A DNA stretch of 64,000 bases, taken from NCBI RefSeq assembly GCF_900110485.1, contig NZ_FODY01000004.1, positions 1-64,000 on the forward strand, in the 5' to 3' direction. This DNA is from Propionispora vibrioides. GTDB lineage: Bacteria > Bacillota > Negativicutes > Propionisporales > Propionisporaceae. The first letter of the stretch is position 1. Each line of letters begins with the position of its first letter. A model generated the notes under the pieces. It did not search any database. It was not told the DNA's origin and worked only from the letters and a program-made list of their open reading frames with translations. The position numbers and the translations under genes are program-made. This document shows, piece after piece, positions 7,374-55,089 of the stretch.

Positions 7374-8195
7374 TTATTTGAGAATACCGCCGGCATAGCC
7401 TAAGATGCCGATGGCGAATAAGCCAAAGATGATGGCAATGGCATTGACTTTCCGTTTTAGGAGATACATGCAGGCGAAGGTTAAGAGCAGCGGCAGCAGG
7501 CCGGGCATGAGCTGGTCGAGAATGCCCTGTACCGTAGTGACGACCGTCTTGCCGTCCTGGCCGGTTACGGTGGAAACCACCAGCGGCACGTTCACACTGG
7601 TCCATTTGCACACCAGCGACCCCATGACGAACAGCCCTAAAATGGAAGCGCCTTCGGTAATTTTCTGCAGCCGGTTGCCTGACATGTCGGCAACGATGTC
7701 TGTTCCTTTTTCATAGCCGTATTGAATGCCATACCATTTGGTGGCCAGGCGAAGAATGTTGAATACCACAAAGAAGAGCAGCGGGCCTAAGATGCTGCCG
7801 CCTAAAGCCAGCGAGGCGCCGAGAGCTGCCGTAACCGGCCGCAGTGTTCCCCAGTAGATTGGATCGCCGACACCGGCCAACGGCCCCATCAAACCGATCT
7901 TTACCCCATTTAGCGTGCCGTCGTCAATGGGCGCGCCGTTAGCTCTTTTTTCTTCCATGGCCGCCGTAATGCCCATGATAGCGTTGGCAACAAAGGGCTG
8001 GGTGTTGAAAAACTCCAGATGCCGTTTTAAGGCCGCTTTCCGCTCTTCGCCTTCATACAATCGCTTGATGGCCGGAATCAGGGACACGCAAAAGCCCATG
8101 GACTGCATTCTTTCAAAGTTAAATGAAGCCAGCAAAAAGTTGGAACGGATAAACATGTTGAATAAATCGCTTTTAGTCAGTTTCTTTTCGCTCAT
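7374..8195 (-). CDS. levG: PTS mannose/fructose/sorbose family transporter subunit IID
   Basis: IID is one of the two membrane subunits of mannose-class PTS permeases. The 273-aa protein has the family start KLTKSDLFNMFIRSNFLLASFNFERMQ, the GVKIGLMGPLAGVGDPIYWGTLRP signature near residue 108, and several hydrophobic segments in the C-terminal half. ATG at 8195 has GGGAGGA upstream. It is the last gene of a IIA-IIB-IIC-IID operon, 15 bases after IIC. The lev name follows the LevR-type regulator next door; the sugar could be fructose, mannose or another hexose. Confidence 0.93.
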   Translation of the reverse strand: MSEKKLTKSDLFNMFIRSNFLLASFNFERMQSMGFCVSLIPAIKRLYEGEERKAALKRHLEFFNTQPFVANAIMGITAAMEEKRANGAPIDDGTLNGVKIGLMGPLAGVGDPIYWGTLRPVTAALGASLALGGSILGPLLFFVVFNILRLATKWYGIQYGYEKGTDIVADMSGNRLQKITEGASILGLFVMGSLVCKWTSVNVPLVVSTVTGQDGKTVVTTVQGILDQLMPGLLPLLLTFACMYLLKRKVNAIAIIFGLFAIGILGYAGGILK

Positions 8196-8210
8196 GTCTG
8201 CACATCCTCC

Positions 8211-8978
8211 CTATAGATCCAATTCGTCGACATCGGAATTTGTCTGGTTGTAACGCGGATGAAGCTGGATATACAAAATGGCCAGAATCGCCCCGACGAT
8301 ACCAAAGCCGACCAGATTGAGATTAGTAAATGCCGCCATAACAAAACCCAGGAAGAAGAACGGCATGAGATATTTGGCTTCCATCATATTAATAACCATG
8401 GCATACCCGACAACTACGATAAAACCGCCGGCCACCTGCAGGCCTCTGGTAATAACCTCCGGTATGGATGCCAGCATGGCTTCTACACCGTGTGTACCGG
8501 CAACAGCCGCTACCAGCGCGGTGGGTACGGCTACCCGGATAGCTTGCAGCATCCAGGCCAGGAAATGGCACATTTCAATGCCCCGCAGACTGCCCTCATC
8601 GGCATATTTATCGGCCAGATGCTGAAAGAAAGTAGTAATAGACCGGACAAAAATAGTAAGCACCTGTCCTGCCGCCGCAATCGGAATGGCCACCGCAATA
8701 CCGGCGCCGATCGACTGCTTGCCGACAATAACCAAAATGGATGCGATAACACTGGCCAGGGCCGAATCAGGCGCCATGGACGCACCGATATTCATCCAGC
8801 CCAGCGCCATCAACTCCAGCGTACCGCCCAGGATAACCCCGGTTTTCAAATCTCCCAGCACCAAACCGACCAGCGTGCAGGCAATCAGCGGCCGATGCCC
8901 CTGTCCCTCATCGACAACGCTCTCCATCCCGGCGTATGCCGCAACAAGGATCAACAAAATCATTTGTATTTCACTCAT
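8211..8978 (-). CDS. levF: PTS mannose/fructose/sorbose family transporter subunit IIC
   Basis: This 255-aa membrane protein forms the sugar channel together with IID. It begins MSEIQMILLILVAAYAGMESV and carries the CTLVGLVLGDLKTGVILGGTLELMALG block that is the family signature for mannose-class IIC. About seven hydrophobic stretches are visible. ATG at 8978 has GGAGGAGG upstream. It sits between IIB and IID, all on one strand with short gaps, so it is one operon. Expression is expected from the sigma-54 promoter at 9962-9980. Confidence 0.93.
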   Translation of the reverse strand: MSEIQMILLILVAAYAGMESVVDEGQGHRPLIACTLVGLVLGDLKTGVILGGTLELMALGWMNIGASMAPDSALASVIASILVIVGKQSIGAGIAVAIPIAAAGQVLTIFVRSITTFFQHLADKYADEGSLRGIEMCHFLAWMLQAIRVAVPTALVAAVAGTHGVEAMLASIPEVITRGLQVAGGFIVVVGYAMVINMMEAKYLMPFFFLGFVMAAFTNLNLVGFGIVGAILAILYIQLHPRYNQTNSDVDELDL

Positions 8979-9018
8979 GACAGTACCTCCTCCTTATTTA
9001 TCAGGCAATCTTAGTTCT

Positions 9019-9510
9019 TTATTCGGTAAATAGTCCTTCAATTTTGCCCATCAGATCTTCCCGGTTGTCGGCCGATACCTTTCTTACTTCCAGTTCGATG
9101 CCCAAAGCGTGGAGTTTGCGAAAGGCCGCCACATCCTCCTTGCCTACGGCCACCGCGCCGGTAATCAGCACCTTACCCTCGCGGTAGTTCATGCCGCCCA
9201 CATTAACTGATTTGATATCGACGCCGCCCTCCACCATCCGGACGACATCGGTGGGATTAGTGAACAAAAACAGCGTCTTAAAATCGTTGTATTTGGGATT
9301 CTTATAGGCTTCCACCGCCTTGGCTATGGGCAGCACATAGGCTTTGATACCCGGCGGCGCCACCTGCAGCACCAGTGTCTTGCGCAACTGGTCGGCAGCC
9401 ACTTCGTCACTGCAGGCAATGATCTTGTTGCAGCCTACCGCTTTGACCCAGGTCGTGGCTACCTGCCCGTGAATTAAACGATCATCAATCCGTGCTAAAC
9501 AAATATGCAT
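9019..9510 (-). CDS. levE: PTS mannose/fructose/sorbose family transporter subunit IIB
   Basis: Cytoplasmic EIIB passes phosphate from IIA to the incoming sugar. The 163-aa protein has the phosphorylated His in RIDDRLIHGQV near residue 15 and the conserved NVGGMNYR segment near residue 108. It is a separate protein rather than fused to IIA as in E. coli ManX. The start ATG at 9510 shares one base with the IIA stop codon (TAATG), a sign of translational coupling and equal dosage. Confidence 0.94.
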   Translation of the reverse strand: MHICLARIDDRLIHGQVATTWVKAVGCNKIIACSDEVAADQLRKTLVLQVAPPGIKAYVLPIAKAVEAYKNPKYNDFKTLFLFTNPTDVVRMVEGGVDIKSVNVGGMNYREGKVLITGAVAVGKEDVAAFRKLHALGIELEVRKVSADNREDLMGKIEGLFTE

Positions 9511-9932
9511 TATAAATCCTCTCCCGCATTGGTATCAAAATTTGCCCTAAACGATTTTATCGCACTGCTTCCTGCGCTCATTGCGATATCCACTAGTTCC
9601 GGTAGACTGGAAAACTTCCGTGTCCCGTAGATTTCCAGCAGCATAGGCAGGTTGACACCGGTTACCACGTCCATGCTGTTTTGATTTTCTGCGGCTACAC
9701 GGCCGGCGGCGTTGTAGGGGCTGCCGCCAAAGAGATCCACCAGGAAAAGCACCGCCTGCTTATCCTCCAGCTTGTTGAGTGCCGCCTTATACCTGTCCAC
9801 CAGGTCTTCCGCGCTCTCCCCCGGTTCAAAAGTCAGGTACTGCAGATTGTCCTGCCTGCCGAACATCATCTCCGATGCTCTGACCAGCTCTTCCGAAAAT
9901 TTGCCATGGGTGCATACGATCAAACCGATCAT
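9510..9932 (-). CDS. levD: PTS mannose/fructose/sorbose family transporter subunit IIA
   Basis: Cytoplasmic EIIA takes phosphate from HPr. The active His is in IGLIVCTHGKFSEEL near the N-terminus; the FLVDLFGGSPYNAA block near residue 64 and the TGVNLPMLLE block are typical of the mannose-class IIA. Length is 140 aa from ATG at 9932, chosen because GGAGG lies 8 bases upstream; a GTG three codons earlier overlaps that site. This is the first gene of the operon and lies 30 bases downstream of a near-perfect sigma-54 promoter, with LevR-site-like repeats upstream. Confidence 0.93.
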   Translation of the reverse strand: MIGLIVCTHGKFSEELVRASEMMFGRQDNLQYLTFEPGESAEDLVDRYKAALNKLEDKQAVLFLVDLFGGSPYNAAGRVAAENQNSMDVVTGVNLPMLLEIYGTRKFSSLPELVDIAMSAGSSAIKSFRANFDTNAGEDL

Positions 9933-9961
9933 TGCTATCACCTCCTCTTGCCCTTATAAAT

Positions 9962-9980
9962 AAGCAAGAACCGTGCCAAA
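9962..9980 (-). promoter_or_regulatory. Sigma-54 (-24/-12) promoter of the mannose-class PTS operon
   Basis: The minus strand reads TGGCACG, four bases, TTGCT (9978 down to 9963), a full match to the sigma-54 consensus with GG and GC spaced by ten bases. It lies just upstream of the IIA gene. A LevR-type activator gene is directly upstream, and rpoN is at 53662-55089. Confidence 0.9.
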
Positions 9981-10061
9981 CAGCGTATGAACGGCCAACA
10001 ACCCGATTATCCGCCGTAAAACCGTCCCGTTTCATACACAGGCCGCCCGTTTCATACACTA
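9981..10061 (-). promoter_or_regulatory. Probable LevR upstream activating sites of the PTS operon
   Basis: Two direct copies of CCGTTTCATACAC(A/T) start at 10027 and 10047, exactly 20 bases apart, about 50-80 bases upstream of the sigma-54 promoter. An inverted, weaker copy (GCGTATGAACGG) lies at 9983-9994, right beside the promoter. The same set occurs before levR at 12951-13041. Binding by LevR is an inference. Confidence 0.75.
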
Positions 10062-10090
10062 GCCCGGAAAGCGCCCTGTCTTTTGATACG

Positions 10091-12886
10091 TTAAAGCCCT
10101 TCTTCCTCACTGGCAACAGGCAGTTGCAGCAATTCGCAGATATAATATTTTTCATCCTCCGTCAGACTGATGCGCAGCGACGCTGTAAAAAGCCGGCAAG
10201 CCCGGTCGACTGCCGCGACCAGACCAGGCTCCAGTTGCGAAGCATCCTCCACATACCGCAGCCCCTCCTGCAGCAGCATCCGCTCCAGGGCATAACCGAC
10301 ATGGACTACCAGCCGGATCTTTACGACATTTTCCAGTTGATAACCCAATTCCCCCTCCAACTGAGCGACAAATTCAAGCAGCATACCGATCACTTTGGCC
10401 GGGTTTAAAAAAGTGAGAAACTGCTGCAGGTTCTTCTCGCACAAATCCCGCACCACCGCACTAGGCTGGGCCTGGCCGACGCTAAGCTCCTTACCGCCCA
10501 GCAGCTCCTGCAGCAACCGCTCGCCGCTGCCGTCAATCAGCTTTTCCAACGGGATAAACGGTATGGCAGCCTTGGGCCGCTTAACACCCACTACGGCCAA
10601 AATGGCGTGATTGGCCTGTAATTCCTTTAGCTTGCGGTCAAGCTCCCGGACCCCGGCAGGTACCACCTGCACGCCTTTCTCTCCCGCCTCCGTCAGGATG
10701 CTCTCCACCATTTCCTTTAGCTTTACCGCCGTGCCGCTGCCGGAAGCGCACACCGTGATGATCAACCGGCCGGGGTGCTTTTCCTGCTCCTTAAAATCAT
10801 TGTTGTAGCCCCGGAATGCTCTGAGTGCGGCATATACATCCTCCAGCTCCATATCGAACACATTAGTCTTGCGGACAGCCTCCAAAATGAGCGGCGTGGA
10901 GACCATGTCAATCGTCCTAACGGCGCTGCCGGTCCGTTCGACCAGTGTCGTTTCAAACTTGAACAGCGACCCCATATCGACCAGCAGCAAGACCCCTTTG
11001 CCCTTATCCATGATCCTAACCTTTTCCGTCATGACTTCCAGAATCTCCTTCGGGCTGACATCGAGCGGCATATCGACGGCACACAGGCTGGTCACCTCGC
11101 CTAACAGCCGCTCCACTACGGCAACCATGCTGCTGGCCGTACTGTTGCCATGGGCGGCGACAATAATGCCCACCTGTCCCTGCCGTTCCAATTCCACCGA
11201 TTTAAGCAAAATGGCAATATAGGTCACTTCGGCGGCAGGCACCTCTATGTGGAAGGTCTGACTGATGGCCTGCTTAATTTGCAGCGCTACCGCCAGCTCA
11301 GCCTCCTCGATCTGCAGCGAGGGGTCACGATACACCGCATGCTTGTACTCCTTTTCCTTAATCCGCTTGAAGAAGGCGCTTAAGTGAAAGCTAAGGGCAT
11401 AAGTAAAGCGTTCACTGTAAGCCCGCCCCAGATTCTGCTCGGCCAGGATCTTCATTTTTTCGGCAAACTCCAGAATTTCCTTATCGATGACCTTCAGCAT
11501 GCGTTCCCGGTTTTCCTTATCCTTGGCCAGACGGTTATACAGTTTCTTGATATTGATATGAACATCGTTGGCGATAAAATTGTTGATATAACTGTCGTCA
11601 ATGCCTTCCTGGCGCAGCAGGGTAATCTTGTCCTCCATCAGCCGGTACAGGTTAAAAGGCATGTCGTAGCTGTCCTCGACCAGCGGCTTGTGGCCCTCCG
11701 GTCCGATAACCAGCGGCGCCGCCAGCCGCTGTCCCAACTCCTCAAACTCCCGGTGATTGCGGCCGATGGCAAATAAACCGTCCTTGATATCGGACGACAG
11801 CAGGCTGAATTCCAGCTCAATGCATTCCTGGCTGCTGTTTAAGCTGTTTAAAAAACCCTTGGCGCAGGTAATCTGGATATTGGATTTCAACTGGCCGATA
11901 TTGCCGTAGGAAACACTGCCGATCAGCGCCTTCACCACTTCCGGCGATACTTTGATCGATTTATTCACCCGGTGGGCCTCATTGGCAAACAAGTGCCGGA
12001 TCATATCGATCTTTTCGCTTACTGTCCGTTCCTGCAACGACGGGATGCGAATAATCACCGGTATCCGGCGGATAAAGGTGGTCAGCAGGTGAGAACTGGG
12101 CTCTTCGGTCGTGGCCCCAATAATCAGCACACCGGCTTTGCGCTTGCGTTCCGTCTCACCCAGCTTGTTGTAGGTGCCTGTATCAATGAAATAAAAGAGC
12201 ATTTCCTGCCCTTCCGGCGGCAGACGGTGAATTTCATCCAAAAACAGCACTCCGCCGTCGGCTTTTTCCACCAAACCGTCGCGGTCCTGATCGGCGCCGG
12301 TAAAGGCGCCTTTGACGTAGCCAAATAGATGGGACAGCAAGAGCTGCGGATTATGGTAGTAATCAGCGCAGTTAAAAATAATAAACGGCGACTTTTCGGA
12401 AAATCGCTTGCAGTACTTGCCATAGTTGTACATCATCCGGGCAAACAGGGTTTTCCCCACTCCCGTATTGCCCAGGATCAACGTATGGAGTCCCACCGGC
12501 GGGTACACCATGGCCGCCTTGGCCTGTTCCACCTGATTCTTCAAGCTCTTACCCGAACCGATAAGCAGGCTGAATGGGTCCTGCTCCGCCTGGGCGGCGA
12601 CGAGTTCCCGGATGCTGTCCACCTCCAGACAGGACTCGGCCAACGGCAGATTAAGCAAGGTCTGGACGCCGGCCTTATCCAAAAAGCGAACCGGCCGGCC
12701 TTTCAGCTTGATGATCTTATCCAGCCGGAGCAGCTCATTCAGCTCCTTGCTGACATTATTGCGCAGCATCCCCAATTGATCGGCTATCTCATTGGTCTCC
12801 AGCCCTTGTCCCCCCAGCAGCTCATCGGGGGAAAACCTGGCTGTATGCTCTTTGACGAACTCGTATACCAAATCCATTCTTTTCAT
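10091..12886 (-). CDS. levR: LevR-type sigma-54-dependent activator with PTS regulation domains
   Basis: This 931-aa regulator turns on a mannose-class PTS operon when its sugar is present. Domains in order: a winged helix at about 1-75; an AAA+ domain with Walker A GNTGVGKT at 139-146, the sigma-54 contact motif GAFTGA at 193-198 and Walker B LFLDE at 214-218; a first PRD around 470-570; an EIIA-mannose-like domain starting near VGIIVAAHGNSTASS; an EIIB-like domain starting near LIITVCASGSG; and a second PRD at the C-terminus. The PTS would phosphorylate His residues in the PRD and EIIA-like parts to set activity. ATG at 12886 has GAGGG upstream. Its own gap holds a sigma-54-like promoter with the same sites as the PTS operon, suggesting autoactivation. 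Confidence 0.92.
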   Translation of the reverse strand: MKRMDLVYEFVKEHTARFSPDELLGGQGLETNEIADQLGMLRNNVSKELNELLRLDKIIKLKGRPVRFLDKAGVQTLLNLPLAESCLEVDSIRELVAAQAEQDPFSLLIGSGKSLKNQVEQAKAAMVYPPVGLHTLILGNTGVGKTLFARMMYNYGKYCKRFSEKSPFIIFNCADYYHNPQLLLSHLFGYVKGAFTGADQDRDGLVEKADGGVLFLDEIHRLPPEGQEMLFYFIDTGTYNKLGETERKRKAGVLIIGATTEEPSSHLLTTFIRRIPVIIRIPSLQERTVSEKIDMIRHLFANEAHRVNKSIKVSPEVVKALIGSVSYGNIGQLKSNIQITCAKGFLNSLNSSQECIELEFSLLSSDIKDGLFAIGRNHREFEELGQRLAAPLVIGPEGHKPLVEDSYDMPFNLYRLMEDKITLLRQEGIDDSYINNFIANDVHINIKKLYNRLAKDKENRERMLKVIDKEILEFAEKMKILAEQNLGRAYSERFTYALSFHLSAFFKRIKEKEYKHAVYRDPSLQIEEAELAVALQIKQAISQTFHIEVPAAEVTYIAILLKSVELERQGQVGIIVAAHGNSTASSMVAVVERLLGEVTSLCAVDMPLDVSPKEILEVMTEKVRIMDKGKGVLLLVDMGSLFKFETTLVERTGSAVRTIDMVSTPLILEAVRKTNVFDMELEDVYAALRAFRGYNNDFKEQEKHPGRLIITVCASGSGTAVKLKEMVESILTEAGEKGVQVVPAGVRELDRKLKELQANHAILAVVGVKRPKAAIPFIPLEKLIDGSGERLLQELLGGKELSVGQAQPSAVVRDLCEKNLQQFLTFLNPAKVIGMLLEFVAQLEGELGYQLENVVKIRLVVHVGYALERMLLQEGLRYVEDASQLEPGLVAAVDRACRLFTASLRISLTEDEKYYICELLQLPVASEEEGL

Positions 12887-12933
12887 AATCAGACCCTCAC
12901 ACTAACAGACTTTATTTCTCATCTTTCATTAGT

Positions 12934-12949
12934 AGCAAAAATCATTCCA
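12934..12949 (-). promoter_or_regulatory. Probable sigma-54 promoter of levR
   Basis: The minus strand reads TGGAATG, four bases, TTGCT, keeping the essential GG and GC with correct ten-base spacing; two consensus positions of the -24 box differ. It lies 48 bases before the levR start codon. Confidence 0.65.
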
Positions 12950-12950
12950 G

Positions 12951-13041
12951 CTTAGTGTATCAAACCGGTGATTGGACGAACCGGGACACCCCCGGCCGGC
13001 CATCGCGCTTTTCATACACTAATCTTGCTTTACATACACTA
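12951..13041 (-). promoter_or_regulatory. LevR-site-like repeats upstream of levR
   Basis: CTTAGTGTATCAAACCGG (12951-12968) abuts the promoter in one orientation. TTTTCATACACTA (ends 13021) and TTTACATACACTA (ends 13041) follow in the other orientation, 20 bases apart. The order, orientation and spacing match the sites before the PTS operon at 9981-10061. Confidence 0.7.
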
Positions 13042-13060
13042 CTACATGTAAGAACTTTCA

Positions 13061-13096
13061 AAAAAGACCAGGCACCGAAAAGTGCCTGGTCTTTTT
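13061..13096 (-). terminator. Terminator of the fru operon
   Basis: AAAAAGACCAGGCAC pairs with GTGCCTGGTCTTTTT around a six-base loop, about 55 bases past the fruA stop codon. The minus strand ends in a T run. Confidence 0.85.
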
Positions 13097-13151
13097 CATA
13101 TGGTCCTGTCTTACCAGGACAACGCTTTTTCTGAATGCTGTCCGCTTTTTC

Positions 13152-14519
<1,368 letters not shown>

Positions 14520-14566
14520 AAGTCCTTTCCTCCCCCATGTTATTTTTTATTTATCTATGAAAAAGA

Positions 14567-15022
14567 TTATCCTTCCCGTTCACTGATGACCGCCAGTACG
14601 TCGGCCGAATCCTTCGCCGCCCGCAGCGAGGACAGGAATGAATCGTGCATCAGCATCCGGGCCAGCCGGGACAGAGCCTGCAGGTGCAAGTCGCCGCCGC
14701 TGACCGGTGATGCGATCAGGAAAAACAGATCGGCTTTCGAGCCGTCCAGCGAGGCTACATCCACCCCGTCAGTCAGCCGGGCCATGGCCAGTGCCGGCTT
14801 GGCTACCGCCGCCGATTTAGCGTGGGGAATAGCTACACCAAAGCCAACACCGGTGGTACCGTGGCTTTCCCGGGTGGCAATATCGGCCAGATACTGTTTT
14901 ACATCGGTAACCGCTCCGGCTGCCGCCAGTTTGCCGGCCAGCGCCTGCCACACATCCTCCTTGCTGGCTGCCTCCAGACCTAACACGATACATTCCGGTA
15001 ACAATAATTCCGTAATTTTCAT
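14567..15022 (-). CDS. PTS fructose transporter subunit IIA
   Basis: A 151-aa single-domain fructose-type EIIA, with the active His in VAIPHAKSAAV near residue 67 after ATRESHGTTGVGFG. It receives phosphate from HPr and passes it to the IIB domain of the fruA product downstream. In many Firmicutes this domain is fused into FruA; here it is split off but stays in the operon, 47 bases upstream of fruA and 50 bases downstream of fruK. ATG at 15022 has AGGAGG upstream. A close paralogue is found at 4335-4802. Confidence 0.93.
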   Translation of the reverse strand: MKITELLLPECIVLGLEAASKEDVWQALAGKLAAAGAVTDVKQYLADIATRESHGTTGVGFGVAIPHAKSAAVAKPALAMARLTDGVDVASLDGSKADLFFLIASPVSGGDLHLQALSRLARMLMHDSFLSSLRAAKDSADVLAVISEREG

Positions 15023-15071
15023 AAGTTAAAACCTCCTTGCTCTCTTTTCATCAACTATAATGATCTGCGCT

Positions 15072-16010
15072 TTATTGGCGCGTAACTTTTACCGCCGCCA
15101 TGACCTTTTCCACATCGGTCATCGAACAGGCCTGCGTCCCCGGCTGCATCACCGCGGCTACCGCCGTGGCGGTTGCCAGCCGGATACGGTCCGGCAAGGG
15201 CAGGCCGCGCACCTCACCGCTAACCAGACCGGCTACCATCGAATCACCGGCACCCACCGTACTCTTGACTTCCACCTGGGGCGGTTCGGCCAGCCACATG
15301 CCTTCCCGGCTGGCGATCATAGCCCCTTTCGACCCCAAGGACACCGTCACTTGCTCAATGCCACCGGCCAACAGCTCGTTGATTACCTGTTGGAGGGCTT
15401 CCTTGCTGTCGAGTGACCGTCCGGCCATTTGGCTCAGTTCATGAATGTTCGGTTTTATGGCATACGGTTTGGCTTTGATGCCTTCCTCCATAGCCTGGCC
15501 GCTGGTATCCAAAAAGACCTTGCAGCCGGCTTGCCGGAGTTTCGTTATATACTTCCCGTAAATGTCGGCCGGTACGCCCTGGGGCAAACTGCCGGCAAAA
15601 ACAAATACTCCCTGCTGTCCGGCCAGCAGTGCTATCTCCTGCTCTAGAGCAGCCAGATCTTCCGGCCGGCAGGTGACACCGCTGAAATTGATTTCCGTCA
15701 CTTCGCCGTTGGAACCGTCCACCACCTTCATATTGACCCGTGTGGATCCTTCCACTTTGATGAAACGGTCGGTAATATCGTTAGCGGCAAAACATTTCTC
15801 AAAATGTATCAAATTGTTTTTGCCCAAAAACCCTGTTACTGTCACTTCATGGCCCAGTGCTTTCAACACCTTAGCCACATTAATGCCTTTACCGGCCGGA
15901 TCAAGCCGGTCCTGTTCCACCCGGTTAAGCTGGCCGGGAAAAAACCGGGAAAAATAAATGGTGTGATCCAGTGCCGCGTTGAGAGTGACTGTGGATATGA
16001 CAGGTTTCAT
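15072..16010 (-). CDS. fruK: 1-phosphofructokinase
   Basis: FruK phosphorylates fructose 1-phosphate to fructose 1,6-bisphosphate, so FruA-imported sugar enters glycolysis. The 312-aa protein is a PfkB-family kinase: N-terminal ISTVTLNAALDHTIYF, the substrate loop RLDPAGKGINVAKVL, and the C-terminal catalytic motif VKSTVGAGDSMVAG with its Asp base near residue 255. ATG at 16010 has AAGGAGG upstream and overlaps the end of fruR by four bases, which couples the two genes. Confidence 0.95.
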   Translation of the reverse strand: MKPVISTVTLNAALDHTIYFSRFFPGQLNRVEQDRLDPAGKGINVAKVLKALGHEVTVTGFLGKNNLIHFEKCFAANDITDRFIKVEGSTRVNMKVVDGSNGEVTEINFSGVTCRPEDLAALEQEIALLAGQQGVFVFAGSLPQGVPADIYGKYITKLRQAGCKVFLDTSGQAMEEGIKAKPYAIKPNIHELSQMAGRSLDSKEALQQVINELLAGGIEQVTVSLGSKGAMIASREGMWLAEPPQVEVKSTVGAGDSMVAGLVSGEVRGLPLPDRIRLATATAVAAVMQPGTQACSMTDVEKVMAAVKVTRQ

Positions 16011-16783
16011 ACTGGTCCTCCTTTCCCACCGGGCACAACCTGCACCCGGACAAACTCACGAATGCTCCGTAAAGCGTCGTCATCGCCCTGATCATCGGTA
16101 ATCAATAAATCCACTTCGTCGAGGGAACAAATGCGGCATAGACCCTTAATTCCCAGCTTAGAGCTGTCGGTCACTACAATCACTTCGCTGGCCGCCTTCA
16201 GCATATGCCGTTTGGTTTCCGCTTCCACCAGAAACGGAGTGGTGACCGCCGTTTCCACTGAAACGCCATTGGCCCCGAGAAAAATTTTATCAAAGTGCAG
16301 ATTGGCCAACACCGTATTGGTAATAAAACCTACCAGGGAGTGAGTTGTCTTGCGGAAGGTCCCGCCCAGCACCCAAACCTCCACCACCGGATCGTCGGTG
16401 AACACCTGGGCTACATCCATACTGGTGGTGGCAACCGTTACCGGCCGTCCTCTAAGCGCCTTGGCAATCTGCAGCGTCGTAGTTCCCGCATCAAGCAGCA
16501 ATGCCTCGCCATCCTGGACCAGGGCGGCAGCAGCAGCGGCAATCTGGCTTTTAGCCTCTAAATTGCGTATTTCCTTTTCTTTAAAACTTAACTCCAGGCC
16601 GGTTTGGGGCGAAATCGCGCCGCCATGGGTACGCTGAATCAGGCCGGAATCCTCCATCTCCTGCAAATCCCGCCGGATGGTCGATTCTGAAACGGCAAAC
16701 CGCTTGCTTAATTCTCCGACCTTAGCCTTTTTGCCCGATTGCAGCAACTGCAAAATTTCTGTTTTTCGCTCTTCTGCAAACAT
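16007..16783 (-). CDS. fruR: DeoR-family transcriptional regulator of the fru operon
   Basis: This 258-aa repressor-type protein has an N-terminal winged helix (AEERKTEILQLLQ, then VSESTIRRDLQEMEDSGLIQRTHGGA, residues about 1-57) and a C-terminal sugar-phosphate-binding DeoRC domain with LLDAGTTTLQIAK near residue 95 and FLGANGVSVE. Fructose 1-phosphate is the usual inducer in this family. ATG at 16783 has TAGGAGA upstream. It is the first gene of the operon it presumably controls; a strong promoter with flanking repeat motifs lies directly upstream (16803-16897). Confidence 0.9.
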   Translation of the reverse strand: MFAEERKTEILQLLQSGKKAKVGELSKRFAVSESTIRRDLQEMEDSGLIQRTHGGAISPQTGLELSFKEKEIRNLEAKSQIAAAAAALVQDGEALLLDAGTTTLQIAKALRGRPVTVATTSMDVAQVFTDDPVVEVWVLGGTFRKTTHSLVGFITNTVLANLHFDKIFLGANGVSVETAVTTPFLVEAETKRHMLKAASEVIVVTDSSKLGIKGLCRICSLDEVDLLITDDQGDDDALRSIREFVRVQVVPGGKGGPV

Positions 16784-53661: not shown

Positions 53662-55089
53662 TTAGTAGCGTTTGCGCTTGCTGGAAGCCGCAATATTCAT
53701 TTCTTCCCGGTATTTGGCCACTGTGCGGCGCGATACGGTAATCCCCTTCTCCTTCAATATATCGGCCAGAGCTTGGTCACTTAACGGCCGCGTCGCGTCC
53801 TCCTTGCCAATCAGTTCCTTGATTTCCCGTTTCACATTGGCCGAGGCCACATCATCGCCGTCCGAACCTTGCACACCGGCGGTAAAAAAGGACCGGAGGC
53901 TAAACACCCCATACGGCGTATCCACGTATTTGTTGGCCGTAGCCCGGCTTACGGTGGACTCATGGACTTCCACCCGATCGGCCACCTTTTTCATCGTTAA
54001 AGTCTTTAAGGCCTGGGGACCCTGATCAAAAAAGTCCCGCTGAAAATGAATGATCGCTTCCATAACATGCAGCAGCGTACTGCGGCGCTGCTCGATGCTC
54101 TTGATCAGCCATACCGCCGCATTGACCCGGTTCTCAACGAACTTCTTGGTCGTATCGTCGGCATCCCGCACCGCCCGGCGATAATACGGACTGATGGTCA
54201 GATGAGGCAGATCGTCATTCAGCAAAATGACATATTCACCGTTCACCTTCTCCACTGTTACATCAGGCACAATATAGCTGGCCGGCGCACCGCCAAAAGC
54301 CCGCCCCGGCTTGGGGTCGAACGAGCGGATGACGTCAACGGCCTGCTGCACCGCCTGCACGATGGAGCCGGTCTTTTCGGCAATCAGCTTAAACTTGCCG
54401 GCTGCCACCTCGTCGAGATGGTCTTCAATAATCCGGCGGATTAGGTGGCTATCGACCGGCGTTGCAATATTTTGAAAACTATAATTAATATTCCGCTGCT
54501 CCAGCTGAATAGTCAGACACTCCCGCAAATCCCTGGCGCCGATGCCGGGGGGATCAAAACTCTGGATTAGGGCCAGCACCTGCTCCACAATGGGTGGTTT
54601 CATGCCGGTGGCCTGAGCGGCTTCTTTTATGGTGCAGCTTAAATAGCCGTTGCTGTCAATGCAGCCGATCAAATATCTTCCCACCGCTAAGAGTTCCGGA
54701 CGGCGCAATGACAGATGAAGCTGCAGTTCCAAATGCTCCTGCAACGAAACGGTATTAGCCACAAAGAATTCGAGCGACGGTTTTTCCTTTGCTCCCGGTG
54801 AGTTGTAACCCGGGTCAGTACCGTCATTGAAAAACTCCGCCCAGTCGAAATAGTCGCTCAAGGTGGTATCAGTGTCGGTGTTTTTCTCGGCCTGCCCATA
54901 GTCCTCCAGTTCCTGTTCCGCCGGCGAACGGGCCTCAGTTTCTAACATGGGGTTTTCCAGGATGGCCTGTTCAACCATAGTGGATAAATCCTGCGAGGAA
55001 AGCTGCAAAATCTCTATCGCTTGCCTTAATTGGGGCGTCATAATTAACTTCTGGCTCTGCTCCAGTTTAAGTCCAAAATCTAAGTGCAT
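53662..55089 (-). CDS. rpoN: RNA polymerase factor sigma-54
   Basis: Alternative sigma factor for -24/-12 promoters that need AAA+ activators. The 475-aa protein has the Gln/Leu-rich region I (QKLIMTPQLRQAIEILQLSSQDL), an acidic region II, the core-binding region, the helix-turn-helix (TMKKVADRVEVHESTVSRATANKYVDTPYG near 380) and the RpoN box VSRRTVAKYREEM near the C-terminus. ATG at 55089 has AAGGGGGGAAGG upstream. Targets in this window are the promoters at 9962-9980 and 12934-12949, with LevR as activator. Confidence 0.97.
   Translation of the reverse strand: MHLDFGLKLEQSQKLIMTPQLRQAIEILQLSSQDLSTMVEQAILENPMLETEARSPAEQELEDYGQAEKNTDTDTTLSDYFDWAEFFNDGTDPGYNSPGAKEKPSLEFFVANTVSLQEHLELQLHLSLRRPELLAVGRYLIGCIDSNGYLSCTIKEAAQATGMKPPIVEQVLALIQSFDPPGIGARDLRECLTIQLEQRNINYSFQNIATPVDSHLIRRIIEDHLDEVAAGKFKLIAEKTGSIVQAVQQAVDVIRSFDPKPGRAFGGAPASYIVPDVTVEKVNGEYVILLNDDLPHLTISPYYRRAVRDADDTTKKFVENRVNAAVWLIKSIEQRRSTLLHVMEAIIHFQRDFFDQGPQALKTLTMKKVADRVEVHESTVSRATANKYVDTPYGVFSLRSFFTAGVQGSDGDDVASANVKREIKELIGKEDATRPLSDQALADILKEKGITVSRRTVAKYREEMNIAASSKRKRY

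Follow-up and report, generated by a model that had tools for sequence, protein, structure and literature searches.

A separate sigma-54 control region ahead of levR in Propionispora vibrioides repeats the layout of the PTS operon promoter and suggests autoactivation

LevR of B. subtilis and its relatives bind upstream sites and open sigma-54 promoters; HPr phosphorylation stimulates these activators, whereas EIIB phosphorylation inhibits them (PMC10864463, PMC8262876). The locus described here, found in a window of 64 kb of DNA from Propionispora vibrioides that was analysed as a whole, resembles the systems of B. subtilis LevR, Listeria ManR and E. faecalis MptR (PMC10864463, PMC8262876) in the domain order and GAFTGA motif of the activator, and it shares with them an adjacent PTS operon with a -24/-12 promoter and upstream boxes. 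Unlike these systems as they have been described (PMC10864463, PMC8262876), the levR gene of the window itself has a sigma-54 promoter and boxes.

The LevR protein is composed, in this order, of an HTH, an AAA+ part with GAFTGA, a PRD, an EIIA-man, an EIIB-like part and a second PRD (PRD2), with Pfam matches to PF00158 (E 8e-41), PF00874 (two stretches) and PF03610. The phosphorylatable residues H501, H579, C713 and H862 are present and invariant across 7 orthologues. A mannose-family PTS operon with a sigma-54 promoter adjoins the gene, and judged by its domains and motifs the protein is a LevR activator of the ManR/MptR type. The EIIA of the target operon probably starts at the ATG at 9932. 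The fru operon lies upstream of levR, and the strong terminator between them isolates levR from it (Table 1). One full-length match to rpoN was found in the whole genome and it is located in the window; its DNA-binding domain matches at 53668-54144, about 40 kb from levR. An Rfam search of the region gave no match.

Table 1. Features of the levR locus (window coordinates) and positions of six LevR-type paralogues on other contigs of the same genome; promoters and LevR boxes are predicted sites.
Feature	Position	Strand	Details
Target PTS operon, EIIA-EIIB-EIIC-EIID, mannose family	7374..9941	-	PF03610, PF03830, PF03609, PF03613
PTS operon sigma-54 promoter	9963..9978	- (read 9978->9963)	TGGCACGGTTCTTGCT, 0 mismatches to TGGCAYGNNNNTTGCW
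PTS operon proximal LevR box, weak	9982..9992	+	AGCGTATGAAC, two mismatches, 10 bp from TGG
PTS operon distal LevR box	10030..10040	-	TGTGTATGAAA
PTS operon distal LevR box	10050..10060	-	AGTGTATGAAA, 20 bp from the 10030-10040 box
Possible third, degenerate PTS distal box	10082..10092	-	AACGTATCAAA, two mismatches, levR end
levR	10091..12886	-	931 aa, LevR/ManR-type sigma-54 activator
levR sigma-54 -24/-12 promoter	12934..12949	- (read 12949->12934)	TGGAATGATTTTTGCT
levR proximal LevR box	12954..12964	+	AGTGTATCAAA, ATAC exactly 11 bp from TGG
levR distal LevR box	13010..13020	-	AGTGTATGAAA
levR distal LevR box	13030..13040	-	AGTGTATGTAA, one mismatch, 20 bp from the 13010-13020 box
Hairpin terminator, fru operon / levR control region	13061..13097	.	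17-bp stem, -27 kcal/mol, z -6.7
fru operon (DeoR, PfkB, EIIA, EIIBC)	13152-16783	-	upstream of levR
Paralogue L057	C10:125 kb		
Paralogue L059	C12:45 kb		
Paralogue L064	C12:17.8 kb		
Paralogue L062	C20:1.5 kb		
Paralogue L063	C2:247 kb		
Paralogue L071	C3:216 kb		

The initial annotation had described a -24/-12 promoter, an adjoining box and two boxes of opposite orientation 20 bp apart in each of the two gaps, and all of these elements were found. The claim that the layout is equal at both gaps holds for the set of elements, but less well for the proximal box ahead of the PTS operon, which is weak and lies one base short of the usual 11 bp; the best-formed proximal box of the two is that of levR and not that of the PTS operon. 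The levR promoter keeps GG-N10-GC intact and has a single mismatch, an A in place of C in the -24 block; from the position of the GC its transcript start is predicted near 12923. The possible third box of the PTS operon stands 32 bp from the box at 10050, tentatively in helical phase with it. A terminator-like match at 12968-12947, over the levR proximal box, was ascribed to the sequence of box and promoter and not to a terminator.

The shared layout of the two gaps is not due to chance. Nine copies of the exact box WGTGTATSAAAM were counted in the genome (4.43 Mb), compared with 5 of the reversed control pattern, and four of the nine fall in the levR and PTS gaps. The other five are single, mostly inside genes, and none of them has a good adjacent -24/-12 element, so that the genome-wide search yields no further regulon members at exact-box stringency. 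The full layout, in a relaxed description, is present in both gaps, and 100,000 first-order resamples drawn from each of them did not reproduce it once. Since this description was drawn up after the sequence had been seen, more weight is carried by an independent matrix of 36 bp, which was built from 64 distinct PTS promoter sequences located downstream of levR in other species, picked by the -24/-12 score alone and with Propionispora and Lucifera left out. Its consensus starts with tattTTgATACACAAagTTGGCACG: the box adjoining the -24 element emerges although it was never a selection criterion. When the window was scanned with this matrix, the levR promoter came out on top with 22.0 bits, the runner-up scored -0.4, and the best score over 30 Markov resamples was 11.5 bits. 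The PTS promoter of the window scores low because its proximal box is degenerate and shifted by one base. In 64 of 70 PTS promoters of relatives the ATAC of the box stands at exactly the same distance from TGG as at levR. Distal boxes on the same strand of PTS promoters are spaced by 10-12, 20-22, 31-33, 40-43 or 52 bp, that is, in helical phase, and the distal pairs of the window fit this series.

Conservation was followed in the order, which was sampled through four genomes. In Propionispora sp. 2/2-37 the LevR protein is 71% identical, the synteny is the same and the levR gap retains TTTTTGATACACTATGTTGGTATGATTTTTGCTA with a matrix score of 38.3 bits. Lucifera butyrica retains TTTTTGATACACATGTCGGAACAATTTTTGCT about 130 bp ahead of levR with a spacing one base shorter, which accounts for the poor matrix score of this site. 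The counterparts of the levR promoter read TGGTATGATTTTTGCT in Propionispora 2/2-37 and, in a degenerate form, CGGAACAATTTTTGCT in Lucifera. The block TTTGATACACTAWGYTGGWATGATTTTTGCTA is conserved between diverged flanking sequences, and TTTTTGCT with GG-N10-GC is kept in three genomes including Lucifera. The third congener (G002) is without this levR, and this levR promoter is common to only two or three genomes. Conservation among relatives, on which the initial annotation had let its reading depend, is partial: the promoter and the proximal box are kept in Propionispora and Lucifera, but of the distal pair only one box, and a weaker one, has a counterpart in each of Propionispora 2/2-37 and Lucifera, and most other Firmicutes have no sigma-54 promoter at levR.

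All four distal boxes of the two gaps carry GTGTATG, compared with 7 of 72 in relatives, all seven of them in Paenibacillus. Such private drift common to both gaps points to LevR as a single protein that recognises the two control regions. The same genome encodes a ManR/LevR paralogue on contig C45, which is 50% identical and uses the same box family; the PTS promoter there is built in the same way, its boxes AGTGTATTAAA are spaced by about 21 bp, and they carry GTGTATT.

Autoactivation of levR through sigma-54 is the best reading of this arrangement and in our judgement a probable one, in which LevR binding, the sign of its effect and the dynamics are predicted from sequence. The suggestion of the initial annotation that the activator may drive its own gene through sigma-54 gains support from the top rank of the site in the matrix scan, the conserved core and the presence of rpoN, as well as from the common GTATG variant and from a simple consensus scan of 12860-13200, in which no sigma-70 promoter match for levR was found. 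The terminator behind the fru operon, the GAFTGA motif and phosphorylatable residues retained by LevR, and the LevR-type genes that head predicted sigma-54 operons in this genome and in C. difficile point the same way. By the logic of B. subtilis LevR, the PTS operon and the activator gene should here both be targets of activation by LevR. The gene has a stand-alone sigma-54 control region that matches in kind the one ahead of the PTS operon. From the helically phased distal boxes (about -80 to -120), bound LevR would make contact with RNA polymerase-sigma-54 at the -24/-12 element and drive both transcripts; this would be a positive autoregulation controlled through the phosphorylation of LevR by the PTS. 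Sugar influx would lower the phosphorylation of LevR by EIIB, transporter and activator would rise together, and this joint rise would make induction steeper and possibly history-dependent. The proximal box, in its opposite orientation 11 bp from the -24 element, is a fixed part of the architecture and perhaps serves as a second polymerase contact, or as a limiting (occluding) site at high LevR. A loop with this promoter alone needs another source of basal LevR, and as no sigma-70 match was found ahead of the gene by the simple scan, this may be leakage, read-through from the fru operon past the terminator, or cross-activation by the C45 paralogue.

In a wider comparison of 80 loci, a sigma-54 promoter at levR is absent in most. 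Boxes in the last 120 bp before levR or manR are nevertheless frequent by a count in which related genomes are not independent: they are found in 21/26 Selenomonadaceae loci (expected 3.6) and 8/8 Listeria loci (expected 0.8), with a less clear enrichment in Clostridium (14/23, expected 6.4) and none in Paenibacillus (1/10, expected 1.3). In Selenomonadaceae (e.g. L139, L160) they take the form TTGATACACTGTTATAAT...AGTATCA around a -10-like element, and in Listeria (e.g. L153, L157) an inverted box pair has a -10-like element on one side and the start codon on the other; these positions suggest autorepression of levR/manR. The enrichment of boxes before levR/manR thus speaks against constitutive expression as the general case, and the statement of the initial annotation that LevR-type genes are usually constitutive appears doubtful also in view of the sigma-54 promoters at paralogues and at C. 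difficile genes. C. zeae and C. yunnanense are plausible further cases of sigma-54 control of levR: a perfect -24/-12 element stands about 130 bp ahead of the gene, together with a weak proximal box, but distal boxes are not clear. A -24/-12 match at -174 in C. akagii is a doubtful further candidate. Read-through from the PTS operon into a downstream levR is possible in four genomes (G008, G018, G026, G044). At two loci (L042 and L043, in G008 and G044) the PTS operon is followed by a second EIIB gene and a phosphatase-like gene, with levR immediately behind these two, so that it may be co-transcribed with them.

The boxes of Selenomonadaceae (21/26) and Listeria (8/8), which overlap or follow sigma-70-type -10 elements, are an argument for reading the window site in the same manner, namely as autorepression or occlusion in which the boxes hold down the expression of levR from a sigma-70 promoter, the -24/-12 match being a weak or vestigial one. 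The two Propionispora levR promoters could also be read as extended -10 elements (TGGTATGAT / TGGAATGAT), yet Lucifera has lost the TATGAT (AACAAT) and still keeps TTTTTGCT with GG-N10-GC. Moreover, the placement expected of an autorepressed levR, with boxes that overlap a sigma-70 promoter or stand shortly behind it, was not seen here by the simple consensus scan, which gave no sigma-70 match in the levR gap, and the register between box and TGG at levR equals that of sigma-54 PTS promoters. We therefore regard autorepression at this locus as unlikely.

A slightly smaller chance is given to a cascade instead of a self-loop, with the C45 ManR/LevR paralogue or some other activator driving the levR promoter. 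The architecture shared with the C45 PTS promoter and the overlapping box motifs speak for such an arrangement, but the GTATG variant of the window boxes is not seen at C45, and activators of this type usually act on adjacent operons (PMC6615313). It is very improbable that the levR site is non-functional, either a chance match or a decayed element: its -24 block is imperfect and its distal boxes are poorly conserved, but the genome-wide box count, the matrix rank, the conserved block, the resampling and the sharing of GTATG all argue otherwise. Sigma-54 autoactivation of levR is accordingly preferred to each of these.

The sign of the levR feedback may differ between lineages. We put forward only tentatively the possible scheme in which sigma-70-dependent autorepression operates in Selenomonadaceae, Listeria and some Clostridium, as against autoactivation through a composite sigma-54 element in Propionispora and Lucifera that would form a self-amplifying, possibly bistable switch of the mannose PTS. 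If true, a positive feedback loop would be added to a class of PTS regulators that is usually drawn without one. An orthologous protein with the same boxes and opposite predicted feedback would offer a natural comparison of how the sign of autoregulation evolves and of how this sign affects the dynamics of sugar uptake. The strict architecture, in which 11 bp separate a box from the -24 element and the distal boxes are helically phased, could also be used for finding ManR/LevR targets.

Autoactivation of LevR-type genes is not a new idea. In C. difficile the LevR-type genes CD0040 and CD2283 each stand first in an operon that has a predicted sigma-54 promoter (PMC7438776 Table 4), an arrangement which implies autoactivation, and the activator gene of the window likewise sits behind a predicted sigma-54 promoter. 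The same holds for six LevR-type paralogues of about 980-1010 aa in the genome studied here (Table 1), which have a -24/-12 sequence near their own start, with PTS genes behind most of them; they are likely autoactivated operons. N-terminal matches to PF04552, the sigma-54 DNA-binding domain, were observed in L061 (C29:14-24 kb), L062 and the C3/C12 paralogues with E values down to 6e-10, as if the DNA-binding part of these activators were RpoN-like. The six paralogues resemble the window levR in having the sigma-54 promoter directly ahead of the activator gene, but they belong to another subfamily with a C-terminal EIIA_2 (in the members scanned) and an operon-type arrangement. Similarly, CD0040 and CD2283 head operons of the galactitol/mannitol family, whereas the promoter ahead of the window levR is a separate one, with the same arrangement as that of the operon. 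In a literature search short of many subscription papers, no paper was found that describes a further, separate copy of the operon control region ahead of a mannose-type levR. The novelty here thus lies in the stand-alone copy of this control region at a mannose-type levR, as opposed to the sigma-70 placement in Selenomonadaceae and Listeria.
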